Below are positions 51,820 through 64,000 of a stretch of 64,000 nucleotides of DNA, in pieces. Every line of letters starts with the position of its first letter. Within the stretch, counting starts at the first letter, position 1. A program made the position numbers and the translations under genes. The notes beneath the pieces are model-generated. The model made no database searches. It was given only the letters and a program-made list of their open reading frames with translations, and was not told where the DNA came from. Origin of the DNA: Gemmata palustris (GTDB lineage Bacteria > Planctomycetota > Planctomycetia > Gemmatales > Gemmataceae); NCBI RefSeq assembly GCF_017939745.1, contig NZ_JAGKQQ010000001.1, forward strand, positions 744,001-808,000, in the 5' to 3' direction.

Positions 51820-52248
51820 CTCGGCTCCAGGGTGTCACGGTCTTCAATGATAGCACCCGGCCCCGAGTGGGCGGAACCCCGAGCTTCCGCAGGGAACCCG
51901 CCACATTCGGTAAAAATCGTCGCGCGCGTTTAATTCGGCGCACGCGAAACGTCGGATTACCGTGTGGGACGGCGCTCGGTTTCGCGTCTGATTCATGGCA
52001 CACTTCGTTTTGCGCAGCGCAAGTTCCCCGTACCCGGGCATTATCTCAAACCGCAGCGACAGGTGTTTCGTACCGAGTTCCACCGGGAATTGTGATTAAT
52101 ACAATTTCGATCTTGTAATCGATCGGGAGTAAGGTGCCACAATTGGCGGATTTGAAAGTCGATGAACGCACTACTGATCTTGTGCTCGAATATGTCCGAA
52201 TCTACAGTAGTGTCTCTCTTAGTCACCAGTTAGCCAAGTGAGGTCGCC
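51820..52248. other. Divergent intergenic region with small palindrome
   Basis: A 429-base gap between two secreted-protein genes, AT-richer toward its right end. AATTGT-N7-ACAATT (52088-52106) is a palindrome in the region where the rightward promoter is expected. No gene is seen. Confidence 0.5.
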
Positions 52249-53418
52249 TTGTCTCGTTTCAACCCGTCACGGCCGAAGACGCGCCTCGGGATCGAGTCCC
52301 TCGAAAACCGCCTGACGCCCGCGAACCTAAGCATCGCCGTTCCGTATGACGACCCGTCGACTCTGTACCCTCCCCCCACTGAAATATCTCTTCTGGGCGA
52401 TACTCTACCGCCTTCTCTGATGGTCGCCCCGGGCATTGGGGCGCGAACGGTGATCGCGGTTGGCAGCCCCGCGGGTGCTCCGGCCCTGGCCCGGCTCATC
52501 GACTCGCGCACGGGTGCGGAGGTACTGCGTGTCGAACCGTTCGCCGGGTTTCGCGGGAGCATCTCGGTCGCGGCGGGCGATGTGAACGGTGACGGGATTG
52601 CGGATTTGGTGGTTGCCGCCGGCGCGGGTGGTAGCTCGAACGTGCGCGCGTTCGACGGGGCGACGGGCGCGGAGCGCGCGAACTTTTTGGCGTATGAGGG
52701 CTTTAACGGGGCCGTTTCGGTCGCGGTTGGCGACGTGAACGGGTTCGACGACGTTGTGACCGGAGCGGGGGAGGGTAGCGCCGGCGGGCACGTCAAGGTA
52801 TTTTATCTGGCCATGCGAGTACCTCCCGTGGCCCTTTATGTTGAAGGTACTGTTCCCCCCTACCCAGATCTCCCGGGAGCTTATCTTTCCCCGGGACAAG
52901 GGATCACATCGTTCTTGACCTACGACAGTGCGTTCCGTGGTGGCGTGTCGGTTGCCGTTGGGGACGTGGACCGCGACGGGTTCGCGGACATCATCACGGG
53001 GGCAGGGGCTGGGGCTCCGGGTGGGCACGTCAAGGCGTTCTCCGGTCGAACGCGGGAGCAGTTGGCGAGTTTCTCAGCGTACAACGGGTTCACCGGGGGC
53101 GTGCGAGTTTCGGCGGCAGATGTGAACGGGGACGGTGTGTCCGAGATCGTGACGCAAGCAGTGGGAACCTCGCACGTGAAAGTGTTCAGTGTGGATGGTT
53201 CGACCCGTGTGAGCTTCCAAGCGTACCCGTCGTCGGGATATTCGGGTTTCGGGCTCGCAACGGCGGATGTGAACCGGGACGGGATCGCGGACATCGTGAC
53301 GACCGGGCTGACCAATGGGGCGCCGCAACTGCGTGCGTTCCGTGGGATCGATGCGAGCCCGATCGAGCTCGCGTACGCGCTGCCCGGGGACATTCTGGGC
53401 GGGATCGCGGTCGGGTGA
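52249..53418 (+). CDS. Secreted FG-GAP/VCBS repeat protein
   Basis: A 389-residue protein with repeated Ca-binding propeller units of the form VAVGDVNGDGxxDxVTGAG, visible at least six times (SVAAGDVNGDGIADLVVAAG, SVAVGDVDRDGFADIITGAG, RVSAADVNGDGVSEIVTQA, GLATADVNRDGIADIVTTG). Each unit contributes about 60 residues, consistent with one six- to seven-bladed propeller. The N-terminus GIESLENRLTPA is the motif found at the start of many large secreted planctomycete proteins and probably directs export or sorting. The start is TTG at 52249, five to six bases after GTGAGG; no ATG or GTG gives the motif near the N-terminus. Ligand or adhesion role is unknown. Confidence 0.85.
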   Translation: MSRFNPSRPKTRLGIESLENRLTPANLSIAVPYDDPSTLYPPPTEISLLGDTLPPSLMVAPGIGARTVIAVGSPAGAPALARLIDSRTGAEVLRVEPFAGFRGSISVAAGDVNGDGIADLVVAAGAGGSSNVRAFDGATGAERANFLAYEGFNGAVSVAVGDVNGFDDVVTGAGEGSAGGHVKVFYLAMRVPPVALYVEGTVPPYPDLPGAYLSPGQGITSFLTYDSAFRGGVSVAVGDVDRDGFADIITGAGAGAPGGHVKAFSGRTREQLASFSAYNGFTGGVRVSAADVNGDGVSEIVTQAVGTSHVKVFSVDGSTRVSFQAYPSSGYSGFGLATADVNRDGIADIVTTGLTNGAPQLRAFRGIDASPIELAYALPGDILGGIAVG

Positions 53419-53461
53419 GTGATTCGGGTACCCGCTGCGGTGTGATGAGCGATAGAATGTC

Positions 53462-53519
53462 GAACGCCCGGCTGGTTCAGGGAGCAGCTAACGCTACTCC
53501 CTGAACCAGCCGGGCGTTC
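53462..53519. terminator. Bidirectional hairpin between convergent genes
   Basis: A perfect 23-bp stem (53462-53484 with 53497-53519, starting GAACGCCCGGCTGGTTCAGG) encloses a 12-base loop. It lies between the FG-GAP gene and the convergent aldolase gene, where a shared terminator is expected. T-tracts are weak on both sides. Confidence 0.65.
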
Positions 53520-53562
53520 TTACGCTATTACGATCGCGATCCCGCCACAAATGCAGTCGAGA

Positions 53563-54669
53563 TCAATAGACCGCGTTGGGGTCGGACGGGCCGCTCGCGC
53601 CCTTGGCGGCCGTGCCGCCGCCGTAGCGGGCGTGCCAGCCGTCCGTCGTGCGGATGCCGTGCAGGTCTTCCATCGTGAGACCGTACTTCGCGAACCACGG
53701 CGTGCCGCTCTTCACGATCGCGTCCGTTTCCTGAACCCGCTTCACGCACTCGGTTTCGGCGAACTTCTGGCGGTCGGCCGGCGACGCGTAGGTGAAGAAT
53801 TCCTTCCAGAACGCCCGGCCGCCGAGGATGCCGCTCGCCCCGGCCTTCATCGCCATGTCCACTTGCTTCTTGTACTTGTCGTAATCGACGCCGGCGGACA
53901 GCAGCACCCACGGCTTCACGCAGGCGTCGTTGAGCCGCTTCAGGTTGTCCACCAGTTGCGCGTCCGACTCGACGCCGAACGTGCCGGGGAACTCGGCCTT
54001 GTAGATGTCGCAGTAGCGGCTCAGGTACTTCGCGGTGTCGATGACGGTCTTGGCCTTCCGCGCCGCGACCTTGTCCTTCGCCTCCTCGACGCCGTTGATC
54101 TTGTACGCGAAGTGCAGCGGTTCCAGCAGGAACAGGATGTCGTGCTTGACGCACTCGTCGTAAACGTGCTGCGTGAACGCGAAGTTCCGCTCGGCCGAAT
54201 CGAGTTCGTCGGGCTCGAACTGCGCGAGCAGCTTCACCGCGTCGGCGCCGCAGCGCTTGATCTTCGCGACGCTCCAGCCCGGCTCGACCTCGCCGCACGG
54301 CGCGCCGGCCGCGTTCTTGTCGGCCCCGGACTTCTCGACGCGGATGAGCAGCCCCGTGCTGGGCGGCACCGCGAACGCCGAGACGGTGCTGGCGTAGCCG
54401 TAAAACCCGTCCACGAGCAGGCCCGAGCAGTGCGGGGCGAGCGCCCGCGACAGCATCACCTTCGCGTCCGCGATCTCGGCGTAGGTCGGCTCGCGGTCGG
54501 CGCCGGTGGCCTCTTTCGTCGCCTTCTTCATCATCGAGATCATGGAGCTGTTCTGGTCGGTGGCGACCATCGTTAGCGTGCCGTTCGCGTTGCTGATGCG
54601 CTGCAACCCGCGGAGTTTGCCGGGCGTGAGACCGAGTCCGTAGAGGCGCGTAATCGAAGTTGTGGCCAT
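53563..54669 (-). CDS. Class I aldolase of the LacD/tagatose-1,6-bisphosphate aldolase family
   Basis: A 368-residue TIM-barrel aldolase. The Schiff-base lysine is Lys224 in DIYKAEFPG, equivalent to the DVYKVExP strand of LacD. TMVATDQNSSM, LLEPLHFAYK, WVLLSAGVDYDKY and GASGILGGRAFWKEFF are further family blocks. LacD cleaves tagatose 1,6-bisphosphate to dihydroxyacetone phosphate and glyceraldehyde 3-phosphate; relatives act on sulfofructose or other phosphorylated ketoses, so exact substrate is open. The ATG at 54669 follows AGGAG; the longer frame to 54798 is not needed. No other sugar-catabolism genes are adjacent. The ATP-grasp gene lies 46 bases upstream on the same strand. Confidence 0.85.
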   Translation of the reverse strand: MATTSITRLYGLGLTPGKLRGLQRISNANGTLTMVATDQNSSMISMMKKATKEATGADREPTYAEIADAKVMLSRALAPHCSGLLVDGFYGYASTVSAFAVPPSTGLLIRVEKSGADKNAAGAPCGEVEPGWSVAKIKRCGADAVKLLAQFEPDELDSAERNFAFTQHVYDECVKHDILFLLEPLHFAYKINGVEEAKDKVAARKAKTVIDTAKYLSRYCDIYKAEFPGTFGVESDAQLVDNLKRLNDACVKPWVLLSAGVDYDKYKKQVDMAMKAGASGILGGRAFWKEFFTYASPADRQKFAETECVKRVQETDAIVKSGTPWFAKYGLTMEDLHGIRTTDGWHARYGGGTAAKGASGPSDPNAVY

Positions 54670-54715
54670 CGGAGCGATTCTCCTCTTTGCAAAATTTGAG
54701 TAATCGCTTGACATC

Positions 54716-55543
54716 TTAGGAGCGAGGCACCTTACGGACAGGTTGCGCGCGCGGGCTCTCGTTGATCCACTTCGCGGTAAAATCGAGATAAGCCGCACGA
54801 ATTTCCGGGAACTGCGTCACGTTGGGGACGTGGTTCAGTTCGAGAAGGTTTGGTGTGCCGTCGGGGGAAACGATGTAATCGGCCGCGCACACGGCGAGGT
54901 CGAAATGGTCGCGAAGGGCGCACACGTCCCCCGCGAGTGACTCGTCCAGTGGCATGTGCGCCGCGGTCGAATGGTGGATGGATTTCTTCCAGTCGTCCCC
55001 TCCGAGCCGCAGTTGAAACAGCGCATCGCCGATGGCCGTTACGCGCACGGCTTCGCCCCCCAGGAACGGCTCGATGAGTGACGGTTCGCTCGGGGTCCAT
55101 TTGTCGGCGAACCGTTCTTTCCCCTCGCCACAGTGCCACTCGCCCCACTTCGCGACCGACGGCACTTCCGTGGTGAATGCGGTTCCGGCATCGGTGTACG
55201 AGCGGGGCAGGGCGGCGAACCGCGACACCTTTCGGACGCGGGCCAGGTTCGCGATGCGCGGGCGGCAATCGAGCAACCCGGACGCGCTCGGCAAGCACGG
55301 CCCGCCCCACAGCGCGAGCGCGGCAATTCCGGGCAAATCGTTCTCGAAGATCCCGTGAAAGATGACTTTGTCCACCGGCCCGGTCCAGTCCCAGGCGCCG
55401 AAGCGCGCGAGGTAGAGCCGTTGGTCGCGGACCTGCACCTTCGGCATCATCTCGAAGGCGGCGAAGCGGCACGCGACCCGCGGCTCGAGTTCGTTCACTT
55501 CTGCGCGTTCCAGTCCGATCAGGCCGACGGTTTCGGTAGACAT
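54716..55543 (-). CDS. ATP-grasp domain protein
   Basis: A 275-residue protein with features of the ATP-grasp superfamily, which forms carboxylate-amine or carboxylate-thiol bonds. SLIEPFLGGEAVRVTAIGDALFQ gives the central nucleotide strand, and DYIVSPDGTPNLLELNHVPN (as YIVSPDGTPN and LLELNHVPN) gives the Mg-binding Glu/Asn pair of the final strand. The N-terminal third (LYLARFGAWDWTG, IFHGIFENDLPG) is the pre-ATP-grasp part. Length is short compared with ligases such as RimK. The start at 55543 (MSTETVGLIGLERAEVNE) follows AGGGA. The reaction partner is unknown. A near-identical 40-bp piece of a related gene is present at 62279-62318. Confidence 0.7.
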   Translation of the reverse strand: MSTETVGLIGLERAEVNELEPRVACRFAAFEMMPKVQVRDQRLYLARFGAWDWTGPVDKVIFHGIFENDLPGIAALALWGGPCLPSASGLLDCRPRIANLARVRKVSRFAALPRSYTDAGTAFTTEVPSVAKWGEWHCGEGKERFADKWTPSEPSLIEPFLGGEAVRVTAIGDALFQLRLGGDDWKKSIHHSTAAHMPLDESLAGDVCALRDHFDLAVCAADYIVSPDGTPNLLELNHVPNVTQFPEIRAAYLDFTAKWINESPRAQPVRKVPRS

Positions 55544-55968
55544 GAGGTGGTTCCCTGGTGCTCGCGGTTCCGGCGCTCGGTCGTGACCCGGACTCAAACC
55601 CAGCGCGCATTGCGCCGGGCACGTCCGCGTGCCGCCAGACGCTTGCGCCCGTAACGGGCGGCGACGGCTCTGACGACAGCAACAAGGAGGGACCGCGGGC
55701 GCACGAGTTCGCGCGGGCGGAGCCGTGGGCGTCCAGCAGGGCGGACTCACGCGCAATCCGCGGATCACGGTGAAGCCAAAGCAGAAGGCCCCGAAGCGAT
55801 TATTCGCCTCGGGGCCTTCTTGTTGTTTCTGGGGTACAAAAGAACCGGCCGCGAATCAGCGAGGCGTCGCCCAAAACACCTCAGTGACCGAGGCCGGTTC
55901 GGAGTGAGCGTACCTGCTGGCTGTTTGTCATCAAACGTTCACTGGCATTTTGGAGACATGCCGGCGAA
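55544..55968. other. Intergenic region with a terminator but no visible gene
   Basis: This 425-base gap contains a strong hairpin at 55783-55820 and a second possible stem (GAACCGGCC near 55840 with GGCCGGTTC near 55893). No convincing open reading frame is found on either strand, so the first hairpin may end an unannotated small RNA or be an end marker for the minus-strand island. Confidence 0.5.
55783..55829 (+). terminator. Rho-independent terminator-like hairpin
   Basis: A perfect 12-bp stem AGAAGGCCCCGA (55783-55794) with TCGGGGCCTTCT (55809-55820) is followed on the plus strand by TGTTGTTTCT. No plus-strand gene precedes it. Confidence 0.7.
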
Positions 55969-56868
55969 TCAGTCTGGAACGGCGACCATTTCGCCACCTG
56001 CACGGGTAGCGAGTGCGGGGATGATCGAATCGGCCTCGTAGCGGAGAAATCGGACCGCGCCGTCTGCGAGCAAAAAATGGCTCCCCCCGGAGTGGAGGCT
56101 CCAGAAATGAAGAAAATCGCATCGCGCATCTGGGTAACCGCGCACGAAGCGGTTATTCTCGGCGGGGCAGCTCAAATACCTAGAGGCGGTGAGGATTTCT
56201 CTCGCCCCCAGAAGCATATCGCACGAACCTTCTTTATCTTGTCCCCAACCCGCGTACCACCAGCCCATAGTCAGTCCCGAACTCGGCGGCCGCTCGCCCA
56301 CAAGCAGCGTATTACTCAGGCCGTCACGCACGTCGGTCGGCCGCACTCTCGAGTCGAGATACAGAATGCCATCCTGTAACCGTTGATTCGTTCCTTCGAC
56401 CCCGAGGTACGTGGTAAACGCCGCTTTAAAATCTCCAAAATCGTGGGGCTGAGAGCACCGAGAATCGGTCGGGCAGATGAAAGCGGGGACGACGTGTCCC
56501 AGTAGGGGCAAATGCGGGGGGGATTCAAAGAATTTCTGCTTCTCATATGCTTGAGTGCTCATCGCCCAGAGGTGATCTTGTTCGATGTAGGGCAGTAAGC
56601 GCGTCAGCCAGCTCATGTGCGGGTACGGCGCACGCCCAGACTCCCAACTTACGCCCGGGGGGAACTGTTTGTGGGTGTTCTCATACTGGTGGAGCGAAAG
56701 TCCGATCTGACGGAGATTGTTTTGGCATTTGGTCGCGGCCGCGCTCATGCGGATTTTTTGAACCGCCGGAATCAATAATCCAATTAGCGTCGCTATGATA
56801 AAAATGGTGACCAAAATCTCGACCAATGAAAATCCTACCCGTCGGCGCCTGGTAGATTGCATAAGCAT
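55969..56868 (-). CDS. DUF1559 pseudopilin of the AT-rich island
   Basis: A 299-residue DUF1559 protein. The leader RRRRVG is followed by FSLVEILVTIFIIATLIGLLIPAVQ, a diverged pilin-type helix that retains Glu5, read in parts FSLVEILVTIF and LIGLLIPAVQKIR. TKCQNNLRQIGLSLHQYENTH and SGGSHFLLADGAVRF are the family core and end. Translation may start at ATG 56868 or ATG 56862; neither has a clear ribosome-binding site. It is the last gene of the minus-strand island and lies 78 bases after the unknown bitopic protein gene, so it may be a structural or export partner of the Cys-rich peptide. Codon use is AT-richer than in the 46811 pseudopilin. Confidence 0.9.
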   Translation of the reverse strand: MLMQSTRRRRVGFSLVEILVTIFIIATLIGLLIPAVQKIRMSAAATKCQNNLRQIGLSLHQYENTHKQFPPGVSWESGRAPYPHMSWLTRLLPYIEQDHLWAMSTQAYEKQKFFESPPHLPLLGHVVPAFICPTDSRCSQPHDFGDFKAAFTTYLGVEGTNQRLQDGILYLDSRVRPTDVRDGLSNTLLVGERPPSSGLTMGWWYAGWGQDKEGSCDMLLGAREILTASRYLSCPAENNRFVRGYPDARCDFLHFWSLHSGGSHFLLADGAVRFLRYEADSIIPALATRAGGEMVAVPD

Positions 56869-56946
56869 AGTTTCAACACAAGTTAAAATCTATGTGGCCG
56901 TTTGCGTGCGATTAAGAGTCGTTGGAGGATCGCATGGCTGACGTTG

Positions 56947-58038
56947 TTAGCCGGGTTGCTCGATCTTGCTGTGCCGACTTCTCCAAACAATCGCGGCCCC
57001 CGACAGGAGCAGAATTCCCCCAGCGGAATAGGCAAGAATCATCCAAGTTGAACGGAAACGTGATGACTGACCGGGAGGAGTAGTCGGTAATCGGTCCATC
57101 GCCTCGGGTAATGAGGGCGAAGGCTTGCTGTCCTCGGATTGACGCCAGTAATAATCTTTTTGCTTGGCATCAGGGCGGCGATCTTGAATCCTTGATCCAG
57201 GTAGCAAACCGGCTTCATCCGGGGAGAAGCGATTTAGTGGGACCATACCGAAGTCGACTTTTTTGTAAGTTAGTCGCTCTTGAACGGTTCCAATCGGCTT
57301 TCCGTCGCGCAACTTTTTGTGAACCCGCGTTATTTCAGTCGGGAACCAAGTTGAATCGTGTTTCTTCCATTGGAGCGATTCTGAATCAACTACTATTCCA
57401 TTAAATCCGCCCCTATAACATTCGACGAGTGAAACATTGAATTCGTATTTTCTAGAACATATTATTTTACAATCTTTTGAAAATAATATTTCAATATCTC
57501 CATTTTCTAGTGTTGATATTTTGTCAATGTCTCCATCTTTCATTTTTTCAATATTTATTGCTTTTATAAATCTAATTGAATTAATAGTAAACGCAGTGAA
57601 TGGTGGCAGAATAAGTGGATGATCCTCTTTAAGTATGAATCCTCTGGTTACTATTTTTTGTTGCGCGCCTGCTCTAAGAGCGTCTCGTATAAACAGCGTG
57701 CCTGGCTCGCGAATAATTGCTTGGCTGGTAATTGCGTCATCATGATTTTTTGTATAATCTAAATCAATTCGATATTTTTCTTCTGACATTTCAACACGAA
57801 ATCCCGCTGCAACAATCGACTTTCCGTCTGCTTGTACCGTAAATTCGCCCGAACCTATTACGCCCTTGGGCGAGGAAAAACTGGCCATCCATGCCTCGCG
57901 GCACATTTTAATTAGATCTCGCTTCTCGATCGGTTTATTTAATTCTTGGCCATTTGAGGAATTTACCGAGATGATCATAGCTAGAGAGGAAATGATGGTA
58001 TTGCGTATGAGTGTGCGGCCAGTGCGGAAATGGCTCAT
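56947..58038 (-). CDS. Exported bitopic protein of unknown function
   Basis: A 363-residue protein with an N-terminal signal (NTIISSLAMIISVNSSNGQ) and a C-terminal membrane helix (WMILAYSAGGILLLSGAAIVW, about 333-353) followed by a basic tail, so most of it faces outside the cytoplasm. The mature part alternates beta-like strands (GVIGSGEFTVQADGK, EKYRIDLDYTKN) and might have a LolA/LolB-like half-barrel, a low-confidence suggestion. Two cysteines occur close together in KDCKIICSRKYE. The gene is markedly AT-rich, with codon use unlike the rest of the window, which suggests transfer or relaxed selection. It lies between the Cys-rich peptide gene (147 bases upstream, across a terminator-like hairpin) and the pseudopilin gene. 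Confidence 0.75.
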   Translation of the reverse strand: MSHFRTGRTLIRNTIISSLAMIISVNSSNGQELNKPIEKRDLIKMCREAWMASFSSPKGVIGSGEFTVQADGKSIVAAGFRVEMSEEKYRIDLDYTKNHDDAITSQAIIREPGTLFIRDALRAGAQQKIVTRGFILKEDHPLILPPFTAFTINSIRFIKAINIEKMKDGDIDKISTLENGDIEILFSKDCKIICSRKYEFNVSLVECYRGGFNGIVVDSESLQWKKHDSTWFPTEITRVHKKLRDGKPIGTVQERLTYKKVDFGMVPLNRFSPDEAGLLPGSRIQDRRPDAKQKDYYWRQSEDSKPSPSLPEAMDRLPTTPPGQSSRFRSTWMILAYSAGGILLLSGAAIVWRSRHSKIEQPG

Positions 58039-58089
58039 TTCGCCTTGCTCCCCAAGGTGGTTTACTCGTGCCGGACATTTGACTCGAAA

Positions 58090-58126
58090 ATTAATGCCCG
58101 TGCAGCCAAGTTGGGCCGCACGGGCT
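58090..58126 (-). terminator. Terminator-like hairpin after the Cys-rich peptide gene
   Basis: On the minus strand, GCCCGTGCGGCC pairs with GGCTGCACGGGC (one mismatch) and is followed by ATTAATTTT. It lies 59 bases beyond the stop of the 58185-58682 gene. It could let the small peptide be made in excess over the downstream proteins. Confidence 0.65.
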
Positions 58127-58184
58127 CCTAAGCCTAGGCTGAGATTCCAAAAAATAAGAAAATATCTTGACGACCCGGCATCTG

Positions 58185-58682
58185 TCAGTAGCAGGTTAAA
58201 GAGATTAAGCCTGTTTTCTTAATTTTGGAGGTTGCCGGCTGTACTATAAAACAGAAGTTCACGTTCTCGGCTTTTTGCACTATGCAATCGTGTGTCCAAT
58301 AGTAGAGGCGATCCTCATAGAGGGTTTGTGGGCTATCGCAAACAGGATATGATCCCGAGATACTGTCGCAGTGCATCAAATTATAGTATGTAATCATGGT
58401 TCCGCAGGAGTCGCCGGGTTGCTTTCCGGCGACCGGGTTATCGACGCATAAGGTGCTGACTCCAATGCAGTCTGAGTAGGGGACGCACCAGCTATTCCCC
58501 CCAGGTGTACCAGGTGTGGCTGGCTCGCCACCCCTTAGGCCGGACAGCTGTGCATCATCAAGGAACCCGGTGGATGCGGTACTAACCTCTTTTTGAGTCA
58601 GAAGATACGCGCCACAGAATACGAGTAGCGCCAGAGCCGTTCGCGTAAATCCACGTGACAGTCCGCGTCGCCATGCAGGCAT
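58185..58682 (-). CDS. Membrane-anchored Cys-rich peptide with double-glycine leader motif
   Basis: A 165-residue protein of no recognised family. A basic start (RRGLSRGFTR) and hydrophobic helix 14-28 form a signal anchor. Residues 41-52 read LDDAQLSGLRGG, which fits the double-glycine leader pattern: hydrophobic at -12, -7 and -4 (Leu41, Leu46, Leu49), Gln at -8, and Gly51-Gly52 at -2/-1. A Pro/Gly spacer (EPATPGTPGG) leads to a core with nine cysteines (66, 72, 79, 93, 105, 115, 133, 144, 164), likely disulfide-bonded. The start has GGAG upstream. It begins 48 bases after a gene for a C39-peptidase-like protein, the class that cleaves double-glycine leaders. A processed secreted peptide (effector, signal or structural) is the best inference; the function is unknown. 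Confidence 0.75.
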   Translation of the reverse strand: MPAWRRGLSRGFTRTALALLVFCGAYLLTQKEVSTASTGFLDDAQLSGLRGGEPATPGTPGGNSWCVPYSDCIGVSTLCVDNPVAGKQPGDSCGTMITYYNLMHCDSISGSYPVCDSPQTLYEDRLYYWTHDCIVQKAENVNFCFIVQPATSKIKKTGLISLTCY

Positions 58683-59485
58683 CGTCGCATCTCCAAAAAA
58701 AAGTTGGCAGCTTTTCGGCCGCCTCGTGCCTCACGGCTCGCCCCGTAGCAAACCAGTGATTGGGATGGTGTGCACAATCGGTGCTCCGCCTTTTGTTGAC
58801 AGGTGCAAAGTAATACTCCCGTCTACGGTCAGGCCTTTTATTGGACCGTGGCACTCTATTGTTGCTGATAGAATTCCATCATTTATTCTTTTGAATTCGG
58901 ATACTGTGAGAAAGTCCGGAAATTCGATCTTGCTTACTTCGATCGAATCTGCGCGATTGCCAGAAATCGTTAACGGCGGGAGGCGGCGTGATTGCACCTC
59001 TTTTCTTGAAGCCACTCCGAATCGAATCGACGGCGGTTCAATCTTTAGTGGATCGAGTGGTAAAATATCAATCGGTAATTCGATTAGCGATTCGCGAATA
59101 TGTGTTGTTCTAATTTTTATAACTTCCCGGGCATTCGATGCCCATTTAGGCCCAGCCGTCAGTGTCAGGTTGCACGTGCCCCCCGGGGGCAATTGAGAGC
59201 GATCGAACGCAGCTTCAATGTTCTTGGCCGACTCTTCGATCAGCATCGCGACAGTTTCGCTTGATAGATTGCTTATTTTAATTGTTGTGGATGCGGCCTT
59301 GTTGGTTTTCCAGTCCGGGGACACGGATGCGGTTCTTGGCTCCACTTGTATTGACGCGGCTACGGTGCCGGAGATTTCAAACGAGGTGGCCGCATGTGGG
59401 GGGGCCATGTTAATTTGGATGCGCTTTCGGAACGTGCCGGCATTATCCCCGGCGCGAAATGTGCCAGAAATTACTGTGGACTGCC

Positions 59486-59491
59486 GTGATC
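59486..59491. repeat. Target-site duplication, left copy
   Basis: GTGATC directly precedes the left inverted repeat. The same hexamer follows the right inverted repeat at 60959-60964. Confidence 0.85.
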
Positions 59492-60958
59492 CTGTACTTT
59501 CCGCGAAGTTATAGGCGGTTGGCGTAAGTTGTGGGGCCGGGAGTAGACGAGTGCCGGCCCGTCCGGGAGGATGGCGTTACACACGACCTCCCGACCCGAA
59601 CGGACGCGGCCATGCCATCTTCGCATACTCCGGCCCCTCGGTGCCACTGGTTTTCAACCCTGGCCAAGGCTCTGGACCCGCGGTCCGGGCGGCGGCTCGC
59701 GGTCCTGTTCCTCGGGATCATCCTGACCGCGGGCGCCGCACCCTCGCGGGTTGGATCCGGGCCGCCGGGCTGTCGCCCCAGTACCGCCGGTGCTACGCCA
59801 CGGCCGCGGCCGTGGGGCCGCACCGAGCGTATCGCCATGCGGTTGTTGGTCGAGGTTCTCAAGCCCATGGTGGCCGTTGCCTCGGGTGGTGCTGGCCCTC
59901 GACGACACCCCGACGGAGCGGTACGGGCCCAAGGTTCGAGGGGCCGGGGCGCACCACAACCCGACACCCGGGCCGGCCGGGGCCCGTTCGTGTACGGGCA
60001 CGTGGGTGGTCCTCGGGTTGTTGGTGGGACACCCCCTCGGGGGATTGTGGCCCTCCCCTGTTGGCCCGCCTGTACATCCGCCGCAAAGATCTCAGGGCCA
60101 TCCCGGGCCGGACCGGCCCGAGTTCGCAACCAAGTTGGTGATGGCCGTGGACCTGGTCCGGTGGGCCCACGGGTGGCTGAAGACGTGGGGCCGGGCCGTG
60201 TGGGTGGTGGCCGACGGGGCGCACGCCAAGGCCCCGGTGCTCAAGGCCCTACTCGCGCTCCGGGTGACCATGGTGAGCCGGCTCCGCAAGGACGCGGCCC
60301 TGTGGACGGTGCCCCCGGCCCGCGATCCGAGCGCCCGCGGGCGGCCCCGCGTGTACGGGGAGCAGCGGGTGTCGCTCGCCAAGCGGGCCCGCACAAGGGC
60401 GGGTGGACCACGGGCACGTTCACCCTGTATGGGAAGCCCGTGGAGAAGCGGTACAAGACGTTCGAGGCCACGTGGCGGCCGGCCGGGGGCACGATCCGGG
60501 TCGTCCTGGTGGACGAACCCAAGGGGTGGGTCGCGTTCTTCTGCACGGACCCCACGGCCTCCGTGGCCGACATCCTGGGCCTGATCGCGGACCGGTTCTC
60601 GTTGGAAACCTGTTTCGAGATCTCAAACAGGTCGCGGGCGCCGGTCACCAGCAGGTACGCGGGGTCGCGTCGAACGTGGGATGCTTCCACCTGTGTGCGT
60701 GGTCCCTCACGCTCACCGAGGTGTGGGCCTGGAACCAGAAGGCGGATGAACTGGTGGCCCATCGGGCGGCCTCCCGTGGGACGATCCGAACCGGCGCCCG
60801 AGCCACGCGGACAAGCGCCGGGCCTGGCAACGGGAGCTGCTGGCCGAGGAAATTCAGGCCGTTGTGGGCGAGCACCACGACCCCGCGAGAATCCGCGCCC
60901 TCGCGCACCGGTGCCTGGATCTGGCTGCTTAAACGCTATAAGTTCGCGGAAAGTACAG
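59492..60958 (+). mobile_element. 1467-bp insertion sequence with 23-bp terminal inverted repeats
   Basis: The left end (59492-59514) begins CTGTACTTTCCGCGAAGTTA and the right end (complement of 60936-60958) begins CTGTACTTTCCGCGAACTTA; 22 of 23 bases match. A 6-bp duplication GTGATC flanks the element. It carries one DDE-type transposase gene that is broken by several frameshifts. The element is far more GC-rich than the island it entered. The IS family is not assigned with certainty; the transposase resembles the DDE_5/IS4-IS701-like group common in Gemmata. Confidence 0.9.
59612..60932 (+). pseudogene. DDE transposase with multiple frameshifts
   Basis: The transposase runs from ATG 59612 (PSSHTPAPRCHWFSTLAKALDP) to TAA 60932 (HRCLDLAA), but homologous blocks are scattered over three frames: LAVLFLGIILTAG; RRTLAGWIRAAGLSPQYRR; RIAMRLLVEVLKPMV; RVVLALDDTPTERYGPKV; WVVLGLLVGHPLGG; FATKLVMAVDLVRWAHGW with VWVVADGAHAKAPVLKAL; GGWTTGTFTLYGKPVEKR with IRVVLVDEPKGW; RDLKQVAGAGHQQVRGVASN; and the AWQRELLAEEIQAVVGEHHD end. 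The DDE residues are likely in LALDDTP, VADGA and a SLET-Glu. At least seven single-base shifts are implied, with few substitutions. No active enzyme could be made from this copy as read. Confidence 0.85.
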
Positions 60959-60964
60959 GTGATC
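60959..60964. repeat. Target-site duplication, right copy
   Basis: GTGATC follows the right inverted repeat and matches 59486-59491. Confidence 0.85.
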
Positions 60965-61625
60965 CAATGGCGGGGTTTTTTGCCCCAATATTTATACAGC
61001 CACATCCCGCCTCAATTGACTCGATTCTTGCTTCGCGATCACCATTATTATGCACTTGGACCTGAAACGCCTTTTCCTCGCCAATTCGCAATTTGCCAAG
61101 ATCGAGGTGATCTGATTCAAGCTTCAATGTGCTTTTGTCATCTGGCTTTGGATTGAGCAACAAGGCATACCCGGACCACCCACGGTCTCGTAGCTCTAGT
61201 TCGCTAAAGAATTGTGACCCTTCCGGCGCGTCCGTTAGGTTTAATCGACCGTCTTCCGCAACGCCTATGGCGGCAACAAAGTGCCCTCTGTTTAGGTGAA
61301 GGATCGCGTAGCTCCTTTTTTTTCCTAAACATTGGACGAGGTCCTCGTGCGCGATTTTCACCCCTCTGGCCTCGAATCCTAAGGACTCGGCGGCGTTCTT
61401 GATTTCAAGTAGCGTCGTGCCTTCCGATGTCGTTTTGGTTAATTGACGAAGTGTATCGAGATCGACCGGCCGCTCATCGGCCTCGCACACACGGGCGAGT
61501 GATCTGGCCCCACAGTCTGCCGGTGCGTTTGCGGCTCGGCCATTGCGGTTAAAGGCGAGCGAGCATGCGACAATTATTCCGGCGCCACTTAATAGGGCGA
61601 ACAAGCCAATTTTCTGATTACGCAT

Positions 61626-62269
61626 TAGTGCAGTTGCATTGGTGGGTTGGTCGATTGATTAGACTACCGATCATCCTCGCCAGCATCTTGTTCATGCGAG
61701 CTTGTGCTGTCAAGGGTTTTCCTACGCTTTTTCACGGAATCGATTTTTTACCACGCGCCGCAGCATATTTGTCGCGCAAAATGTGCTGGCAACGTGTGCA
61801 GTAAAGTGCAGGCGCACCGAATTCAGCCCGCCGGAATGGCTGTGGTGTCTCAATACCTGCTGGTACACTTTCAACTCGGGCTGCACCGGATGATTTCCCC
61901 AAAACTTTGTCAGGAACGCCGGTGTGGATTCGGCTCTCGCACCTCCGCACCGGACGTTAAAATCTCGGCCACCAATTTCAACTGCTTAAGGATCGCGGTG
62001 TTTCCACTGCGAGCACCGTTGCGCGATCCTGCGGGAAAGGGATGTGCGGCCCGTTTCTGGGCAGATCTTGGCAGAGAAGACGGACACAAAGAAACCGCTG
62101 GCGTCGGGCTCGAATCTGCACTCGTGTCGCCGGGTGATTCCGGCTGCGTTGCTGTCACGGAATCCGTCACGGAAAAGGGTGTGAAACGGGCCATTCCGTG
62201 ACAAATGTGCGATCCGTGCGATGACGCAAGTGCCTGCTGATTCAATAGCTTAGGGGAATTGAATTTTCG
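61626..62269. other. Intergenic region upstream of the island
   Basis: About 640 bases with no supported gene; a 165-codon plus-strand frame at 61704-62201 has no ribosome-binding site or family feature. The promoter of the minus-strand C39/DUF1573 gene should lie in the first 150 bases but is not evident. GTCACGGAAT near 62155 with ATTCCGTGAC near 62193 forms a possible stem. Confidence 0.5.
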
Positions 62270-62330
62270 GCGGTGACATTGGGGACGTGGTTCAGTTCGA
62301 GAAGGTTTAGTGTGCCGTTCGCGCGGTCTA
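62270..62330 (-). pseudogene. Fragment of an ATP-grasp gene
   Basis: On the minus strand this piece encodes NGTLNLLELNHVPNVT, matching the Mg-binding end (DGTPNLLELNHVPNVT) of the ATP-grasp protein at 54716-55543. At DNA level 62279-62318 matches 54822-54861 in 39 of 40 bases, while sequence on either side is unrelated. It directly abuts the stop of the patatin gene. It is a leftover of a duplicated or rearranged gene. Confidence 0.8.
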
Positions 62331-63593
62331 TCGGTCCACGGGGGCTGGGGGCTTTTCGTGCGGGGCGCGCGTCAGCCGCGTGCCCGCCCGTTGGGCCAGG
62401 GTCTCGCCGTCGGCGGTTCCGGGCGGACCCGGGCGCCACGCGGTCCCCGCGAGCACTTGTCGGCGCCCCTCCTTGAACATCCGCGTCATCTCGGACGGAT
62501 CGAACTCGGTGCTCGACGAGGGGGCGGGAAAATCTGCCGGGAGTGCCGCCAAATGGTAGTTCATCCCGGCTACCATCGCAGTCATGTACAGCTTGGTTAA
62601 TTCGGCACGCGTTTCGGCGTAAATCAGGGTGGACACGCTTCCGGCGGCGATCTTCAGCACCCGCGGCCGGACCACTTCTGCGTCGGCAAACAACTTACCG
62701 GCCACAATCACATACAGGTCCGATCCATACAGGAACTCGGCCGGGGGCCGGAGCCGCAGTTCGGGAGGCACCTGTGGCGGGCGGAAGAACACGTTCTGCG
62801 TCACCCCGCCGTCCACGTGGCGCTCGACCAGGCGCCGGCCGTCCACGTCCACCGGGACTTCGACCGGCGGGAAGAAGGCGGGAATTGCGGCCGACGCCAG
62901 GAGCAGTTTGGCGATCAAATCCCGGCACCACGGTTCGCCCCGCGCGGCGATGGCCCCGAGATCCCAGACGACGGGTCGGCGCCCCTCCAGATCGGTCGTG
63001 CCGATGTAGAGTCGGCGCCCCTTTTGGTGCTCGGCGGCCAACCGGGACACCGCTTCGGGGGTGAGCACGCGGTCGATCTGCCGGGCCAACGGCGCGTTGT
63101 CGGCGAGCGCATCGGACCAAAGGCTCCGCACCCCGCGCCGGCGGGTGTAGATGTCCTCGGTGCGGAGGCTCGTGTAGACGCGCCGCAGTTCGCCGTCGAA
63201 CTCCGGACCCAGGAACGCCAGGACCGCGACCAGCGCGCCGGTACTCACGCCCGTCACCGCATCGAACGCGGGGCGCGTGCCGCCCTCGCTCCAACCGACC
63301 AGGAGCCCCGCCTGGTACGCCCCGTATGCCCCACCCCCGGACAGGGCCAGGCAGGTCTTGCGCCCCGGCAGTTTGGTCGGGCGTTGGGCCGCGCGGATGC
63401 GCTCGCCCACGCGAAAAATGTCACGGTCCACGGGCAGAGAGGGGCTGTCGCCGTACCCGGTTGGGTCGATCAATTCGGCCGGCGGGATTCCGGCGCTCGT
63501 TGGTGTGGGTCCGCCGGACGGGGACTGGCACCCGACCAACGCAATAACGGCGGCGAGTGCCACGATTGTGGTCCGGGCTGCGAAAAACGGCAT
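62328..63593 (-). CDS. Patatin-like phospholipase lipoprotein
   Basis: A 421-residue protein with a lipoprotein signal (VIALVGC, Cys about 22). The patatin domain follows: oxyanion loop LALSGGGAYGAYQAGLL, nucleophile Ser in the GxSxG box GVSTGAL, and catalytic Asp in the HVDGGVTQN segment. The catalytic dyad is therefore complete and an acyl-hydrolase activity on membrane lipids is expected, from an outer-membrane or periplasmic location. ATG 63593 is used; a GTG at 63602 would add three residues. The C-terminus (RAPHEKPPAPVDR) ends next to an ATP-grasp gene fragment, so the last residues could be altered by a rearrangement. Confidence 0.9.
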   Translation of the reverse strand: MPFFAARTTIVALAAVIALVGCQSPSGGPTPTSAGIPPAELIDPTGYGDSPSLPVDRDIFRVGERIRAAQRPTKLPGRKTCLALSGGGAYGAYQAGLLVGWSEGGTRPAFDAVTGVSTGALVAVLAFLGPEFDGELRRVYTSLRTEDIYTRRRGVRSLWSDALADNAPLARQIDRVLTPEAVSRLAAEHQKGRRLYIGTTDLEGRRPVVWDLGAIAARGEPWCRDLIAKLLLASAAIPAFFPPVEVPVDVDGRRLVERHVDGGVTQNVFFRPPQVPPELRLRPPAEFLYGSDLYVIVAGKLFADAEVVRPRVLKIAAGSVSTLIYAETRAELTKLYMTAMVAGMNYHLAALPADFPAPSSSTEFDPSEMTRMFKEGRRQVLAGTAWRPGPPGTADGETLAQRAGTRLTRAPHEKPPAPVDR

Positions 63594-63719
63594 TGCACTC
63601 ACTTCACGGGGCGGTGGTCGCGCGGCAGTTCGACGGGGAGTGATCGACCGGCCCGTAACGCTACTTATCGGCCCCCTGGCGCCATTTCTTCACGCACGTG
63701 TTCCCCACCGATTTTGCAC

Positions 63720-63900
63720 CCCTTCACCAATCTCACAGCCGTCGAGCGTTTCGCCGGGCCGTGGCCGAGCACGCGATCGGTCGGTTGCGCCGGTTCCGGG
63801 CCGTGATACACGTCAACCGGCACGCGCGGATGAGGGAGCGAGATCCGGTTCCGGGCCACCGCCGAATTGGTCAACCGGATGCTCGACCGCCGAACTGCCT
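63720..63900 (+). pseudogene. Remnant of an IS5-like transposase C-terminus
   Basis: SRRAFRRAVAEHAIGRLRRF followed by RAVIHVNRHARMRER, and after a frameshift ATAELVNRMLDRR, matches the C-terminal helix region of DDE_Tnp_4/IS5-like transposases (VEHAIGRLKRF...VAGLVNR). No N-terminal part or terminal repeat is present. It is a decayed fragment. Confidence 0.6.
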
Positions 63901-63973
63901 CCGTGACGGATGTGCGGAAGGGCACTGCTGAGACGTCTTGCCCGATTTGCTTCCCCGATTCCGCTCGGCGCGC

Positions 63974-64000
63974 TAGAATAACAGCTATGTCTGCAACGCT
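63974..64000 (+). other. Possible promoter and start of a gene cut by the right edge
   Basis: TAGAAT (63974-63979) lies 7 bases before an ATG at 63987 (MSAT...), with no Shine-Dalgarno box. Only four codons are visible, so a gene cannot be confirmed. Confidence 0.2.

Follow-up and report, generated by a model that had tools for sequence, protein, structure and literature searches.

Templated, or filler, insertions at double-strand-break junctions are a described source of short duplicated DNA. A direct repeat can also come about by other means: when a tandem duplication is trimmed by a later deletion, the start of the duplicated unit would recur at its far end in direct orientation. Touzain et al. 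2010 (PMC2884548) argue that much of the short-scale diversity of bacterial genomes stems from illegitimate recombination, and 10 to 18% of their variable segments have repeats of 5 bp or more on their flanks. An excerpt from a comparison of 121 species (PMC12863080) gives transposases as enriched in rearranged blocks. Among the matches listed in a literature search, the titles and abstract openings contained no bacterial report of exactly the kind of scar that we describe here.

The window is a stretch of 64,000 nt from the genome of Gemmata palustris (G000:C1:744001–808000; G006, G008, G010, G014 and G016 are relatives, G008 being the nearest). It contains two copies of a short sequence at a distance of 7.4 kb. 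The features of the locus are as follows.

52228–55731, no strand: conserved block common to G010 and G008, with an FG-GAP gene, a DeoC/LacD-type aldolase gene and the ATP-grasp gene
54716–55543, minus strand: ATP-grasp-like gene, intact, 275 aa, with relatives over nearly the whole length in G008 and G010
54816–54861, minus strand: copy 1 (source), the part of the ATP-grasp gene encoding GTPNLLELNHVPNVT
55732–62272, no strand: unrelated segment, mostly of lower G+C, to which nothing corresponds at the ATP-grasp loci of G008 and G010
62273–62318, minus strand: copy 2, a 46-nt ATP-grasp gene fragment (core 62279–62318), non-coding, downstream of patatin
62319–62327, no strand: spacer of 9 nt separating the fragment from the patatin stop, with no clear alignment to either source
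62328–63672, minus strand: patatin segment (gene 62328–63602 and ~70 nt upstream), homologous to G008:C1 ~3174260–3175600, where it has other neighbours
63752–63922, no strand: piece 71–77% identical to three other places in the same genome among the matches listed, between the patatin segment and the next block

Of the 40 positions in the core of the pair (62279–62318 and 54822–54861), 39 are identical, as are 43 of 46 in the wider pair (62273–62318 and 54816–54861), and the orientation is the same; the first six bases of the wider pair fit less well (GTGACA versus GTCACG). Both ends are abrupt, with the flanking 20 nt matching at 5/20 positions on the left and 6/20 on the right, which is the level of chance. 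If a match rate of 0.27 is assumed, a simple binomial model gives a chance expectation of ~8e-12 for such a pair in a 64-kb sequence, and the pair has E = 4e-12 in a whole-genome search. The original prediction, which had described a 40-bp fragment of the ATP-grasp gene with abrupt ends, is borne out in these respects. It had also proposed a search for further copies: a 40-mer pattern allowing up to three mismatches occurs at exactly two places in the 9,228,281-base (~9.2 Mb) genome, both already known, and the reversed control at none. Contrary to the original prediction, copy 2 and the patatin stop codon (62328–62330) are not in contact, being separated by 9 nt (62319–62327). The two copies do enclose the AT-rich stretch, although the bracket is not the island, because it also takes in ~5/6 of the ATP-grasp gene, on its N-terminal side.

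Copy 1 corresponds to the conserved C-terminal LLELNH segment of the ATP-grasp-like protein, and residues L233, L234, E235, N237 and P240 of the copied motif are invariant in an alignment of 15 proteins. The counterparts in G008 and G010 (Gemmata sp. IIL30) end ~12 residues earlier. A Pfam scan of the 275-aa protein gave no match, and when the 15 aligned relatives were scanned singly, few matched ATP-grasp families, and these weakly (best RimK, 0.00037, in 1 of 15). A profile of the 15 proteins weakly matched ATP-grasp structures in the PDB, with eight distinct sequences at E ≤ 1, the best being synapsin (0.0013) and an ATP-grasp protein (0.0023). NCBIfam TIGR04187 (ATP-grasp ribosomal peptide maturase) was hit at 3.3e-5, yet with 23.3 bits against a curated cut-off of 350. 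The comparisons support an ATP-grasp-like assignment for gene 54716–55543 and lend no support to a finer name. With the gene as query (E ≤ 0.001, best 12 candidates per genome), 10 of 41 genomes, the own one included, match among the matches listed; long matches are found in G008 (85%), G010 (85%), G006 (79%), G016 (78%) and G014 (74%).

The block common to the relatives begins at 52228 with G010 and at ~52442 with G008. Since it runs through the ATP-grasp gene to 55731, the unrelated segment starts at 55731/55732, 870 bp from copy 1. Copy 1 is therefore situated 870 bp inside the conserved block, and the repeat copies are not the two edges of the segment. The DNA beyond the ATP-grasp gene of G008 has its G000 counterparts at C1:2148592–2156966 and 2408842–2415972.

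On the other side, copy 2 lies on a breakpoint, within 9 nt, because the homology to the G008 patatin ends at the stop codon. The default alignment covers G008:C1:3174292–3175600; with laxer scoring the homology reaches the stop codon at 62328, or ~62320 if a gap is allowed. The neighbours of patatin in G008 have G000 counterparts at C1:1832138–1837152 and 2094201–2098222, the block from 63942 to 68071 matches G008:C1:4549912–4554066 and G010:C3, and the ATP-grasp gene and patatin are 405 kb apart in G008. As the left, patatin and right blocks map apart in G008, they are joined only in G000 among the compared G008, G010, G016 and G006. At the loci of these four genomes, of which G006 is a draft in many contigs, the ATP-grasp gene was seen neither beside patatin nor beside the right-hand block; in G010, the position matching that of patatin lies between the ends of contigs. 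Gemmata gene order is kept only in short blocks within the stretch compared. Judged from its translated residues, the piece at 63752–63922 is presumably a decayed transposase remnant. A second patatin-like gene (G000:C1:812629–813510, 66% DNA identity) is present ~5 kb to the right of the window in the opposite orientation.

Patatin and its flank match 21 of 41 genomes, the own one included, among the matches listed (best 9 per genome). Of these matches, only those in G008 (85%) and G006 (73%) exceed 70% identity along more than 1.1 kb, and the other long matches (65–69% over up to ~0.96 kb) we take, on their sequence, for paralogues. In G008 and G006, the fragment is absent from the 20-kb patatin loci, where the best ungapped match is 25/46; the same scan recovers the G008 ATP-grasp gene at 44/46 as a positive control. 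Its absence beside patatin rests on two genomes, since only these two have a close patatin relative. A fragment occurring in relatives independently of the island, which would have spoken against the original prediction, was thus not seen in these 20-kb loci. Searches with the copy-2 stretch (E ≤ 0.001) in 40 relatives (best 9 candidates per genome) and in 20 relatives (best 18) returned, among the matches listed, only the ATP-grasp genes of G008, G010 and G006.

The segment 55732–62272 carries genes for a DUF1559 pilin-like protein, a 363-aa protein with no family match, a small GG-motif protein and a C39/DUF1573 protein, the last split by an insertion sequence (IS). This IS (59491–60959) has 24-nt terminal repeats matching at 23/24 positions, with TGAT on both sides, and is internal to the island, away from the breakpoints. 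At least 12 further near-full-length copies, 98–99% identical, are present in the genome, with small length differences (six of 1482–1484 nt, six of 1463–1474 nt and ~1467 nt for the copy in the window). A first search scored the best 14 candidates per genome, in G000 nearly all of them IS copies, and is the one that covers the left part (55732–59480). A second search, of the right part with the IS left out, gave no match for 60960–62272 in any of 20 relatives at E ≤ 0.001 among the matches listed (best 18 per genome). A plasmid search with 61600–62330 gave no match.

The small orphan protein at 58188–58682 has a signal-like start and, by eye, an LSGLRGG double-glycine-like motif; a search of 118 other genomes gave no relative at E ≤ 1e-4. 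The C39 peptidase/DUF1573 protein (60939–61625) is encoded near it, and the two may represent a peptide with its protease, in a context other than the usual one of an ABC exporter. An element of ~60 nt at 55838–55898 has an 84% match elsewhere in G008 and G010 among the matches listed, and its ends, AACCGGCC and GGCCGGTT, suggest a hairpin repeat. Inverted arms, GTCACGGAAT (62154–62163) and ATTCCGTGAC (62193–62202), occur in the unique intergenic stretch at 62154–62202.

The copies had been taken for the edges of an inserted segment, with duplication or recombination at an ATP-grasp gene accompanying the arrival of the island. A duplicate of the local gene does lie at a gene-order breakpoint, and on the right-hand side the proposal is partly borne out, with a breakpoint at the patatin stop; on the left-hand side it fails, as the edge at 55731 is 870 bp beyond copy 1, and with it the notion of insert edges. 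Direct repeats of an inserted island, produced by target duplication or as att sites, would account for the direct orientation and for the position of the copies around a segment of mostly lower G+C, but the conserved block continues for 870 bp past copy 1, which is part of an intact gene. Target duplication upon insertion would split the gene across both sides; both of its parts are at copy 1, on the left, with patatin beyond copy 2, and this reading is therefore rejected. The repeats are not found at both ends of the segment (left end 55731/55732 versus copy 1 at 54816–54861), and removal of the DNA between the repeats, by recombination between them, would not restore an intact target: the ATP-grasp gene is already intact in the window, which answers the proposed check for one intact copy at a joined site, and 54862–55543 of 54716–55543, ~5/6 of the gene, would be lost. 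No integrase was detected in the island proteins scanned (Pfam, NCBIfam) and no tRNA gene in the window; as for mobile elements near the edges, the IS at 59491–60959 is internal with its TGAT on both sides, and the putative transposase piece lies beyond patatin. The anatomy of the locus speaks against island edge, target duplication and att sites alike, and we consider direct repeats of an insert very improbable. The corrected edges of the island are 55731/55732 on the left and 62272–62328 on the right, and a striking direct repeat need not signal an insertion.

The fragment could instead be all that is left of a second, once complete ATP-grasp gene beside patatin, eroded from both sides by rearrangement. 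The same sequence relations would be expected, and the poorer first six bases (GTGACA versus GTCACG) could reflect decay. This origin is nevertheless unlikely, as it needs two independent cuts that spare just the conserved piece almost unchanged, while 60960–62360 shows no further ATP-grasp similarity (E ≤ 0.001, among the matches listed) and no ATP-grasp match is found near patatin in G008 or G006. Copy 2 is without evident function. Retention for some role, such as a regulatory or coding one in the 3' region of patatin, would agree with the preservation of the core at 39/40 and with an ATP-grasp frame that is open through copy 2, within a stop-to-stop frame of 150 codons; this frame is, however, not the patatin frame, Rfam gives no match at gathering scores over 54700–64000, and if read together with patatin the fragment would be sense, not antisense, to ATP-grasp. 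We give hardly any credence to such a role.

We favour, at a probability of about 0.7, the view that illegitimate recombination left the 46-nt fragment as a scar where the patatin segment joined the island side. What mainly ties the fragment to the rearrangement is the closeness of copy 2 to a breakpoint, at most 9 nt away. Such a scar could have formed as a templated patch: a broken end at the future junction would have copied 46 nt from the ATP-grasp gene 7.4 kb away, by template switching and in the manner of filler DNA, and would then have been joined. Alternatively, 54816–62272 would have been duplicated in tandem, the fragment being the first 46 nt of the second unit, and the rest of the duplicate would have been deleted up to the patatin stop. 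The direct orientation and the closeness of the copies fit both routes. The patch is slightly ahead because it takes one event instead of two, although the data do not decide between them; a short copy of nearby DNA does sit at a junction of unrelated sequences. None of the genomes searched shows the arrangement that preceded this junction. No second filler piece, which would have strengthened the patch reading, was found in 61626–62272. Apart from copy 1, a filler search within 464 kb with 61626–62330 and 63660–63960 turned up nothing but matches of 15 nt (two and one); among 40 randomly placed control stretches of 705 nt, 13 gave one or more exact matches at least 18 nt long. In the left-edge stretch 55700–55968, the search returned one 20-nt and one 18-nt inverted match.

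Ku (PF02735) has no match in G000 at E ≤ 0.001, in a genome that is 99.1% complete; the same model matches 1 of 14 control genomes, Bacillus subtilis. As no Ku gene was found, a Ku-independent route of joining is more likely than Ku-dependent end joining. A bolder proposal is that the bacterium repairs some breaks with filler, tens of bases long, copied from a gene close by, the fragment being one product. We regard it as speculative and rather improbable; if true, it would represent a bacterial counterpart of templated end joining in a genome where no Ku gene was found.

Copies 1 and 2 differ at 3/46 positions, G008 and copy 1 at 2/46, and G008 and copy 2 at 5/46; in a conserved segment, these differences do not give a firm sequence date. 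Bases common to both copies against G008 were considered as a sign of recent origin, which we rejected: compared with outgroups, they are probably ancestral, G008 being derived at these positions. The absence of the fragment near patatin in G008 and G006, together with a junction confined to G000, suggests that it arose in the lineage of G000 once this had diverged from that of G008.

Under the settings applied, an 864-kb region of G000 around the window yields 223 repeat pairs, 34 of them isolated two-copy pairs, of which 13 are 28–150 nt long with at least 90% identity (79, 15 and 7, respectively, for the first 464 kb alone). By our own reading of the unannotated sequence, the ATP-grasp pair is the only one among the 13 in which a piece of a conserved gene has been copied into non-coding DNA within 10 kb; the rest include several hairpins or inverted elements, one tRNA-like pair and some paralogue segments. 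One pair (559736/685190), not assigned to any of these classes, is 30 nt long, identical and 125 kb apart. Another, 603487–603527 and 621908–621948 (G000:C1), is direct, with 41 nt, 93% identity and a distance of 18.4 kb; it was dropped as a further gene fragment, since reading of the frames indicates that both copies are apparently non-coding beside genes. The inverted pair 1395799/1396817 contains hairpin arms (11 and 6 nt) and was set aside as a repeat element. If junction scars of the ATP-grasp kind were collected and dated across Gemmata, they could reveal how breaks are joined in these genomes.

The locus resembles several described systems in part. As in templated insertions, a short copy of nearby DNA stands between unrelated sequences, whereas the filler-insertion papers listed concern, judging by titles and abstract openings, eukaryotic repair or genome editing, and the present case is a bacterium in which no Ku was found. 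A trimmed tandem duplication would match in direct orientation, but here no longer second copy remains. Like the variable segments of Touzain et al. 2010 (PMC2884548), the sequences would have been joined without site-specific recombination or transposition; the repeats described there are mostly shorter than 30 bp and flank the segment, whereas here one copy is inside a conserved gene, off the edge. The fragment is real and unique in G000, a junction scar is an ordinary trace of genome reshuffling, and both candidate routes to it are ordinary as well.
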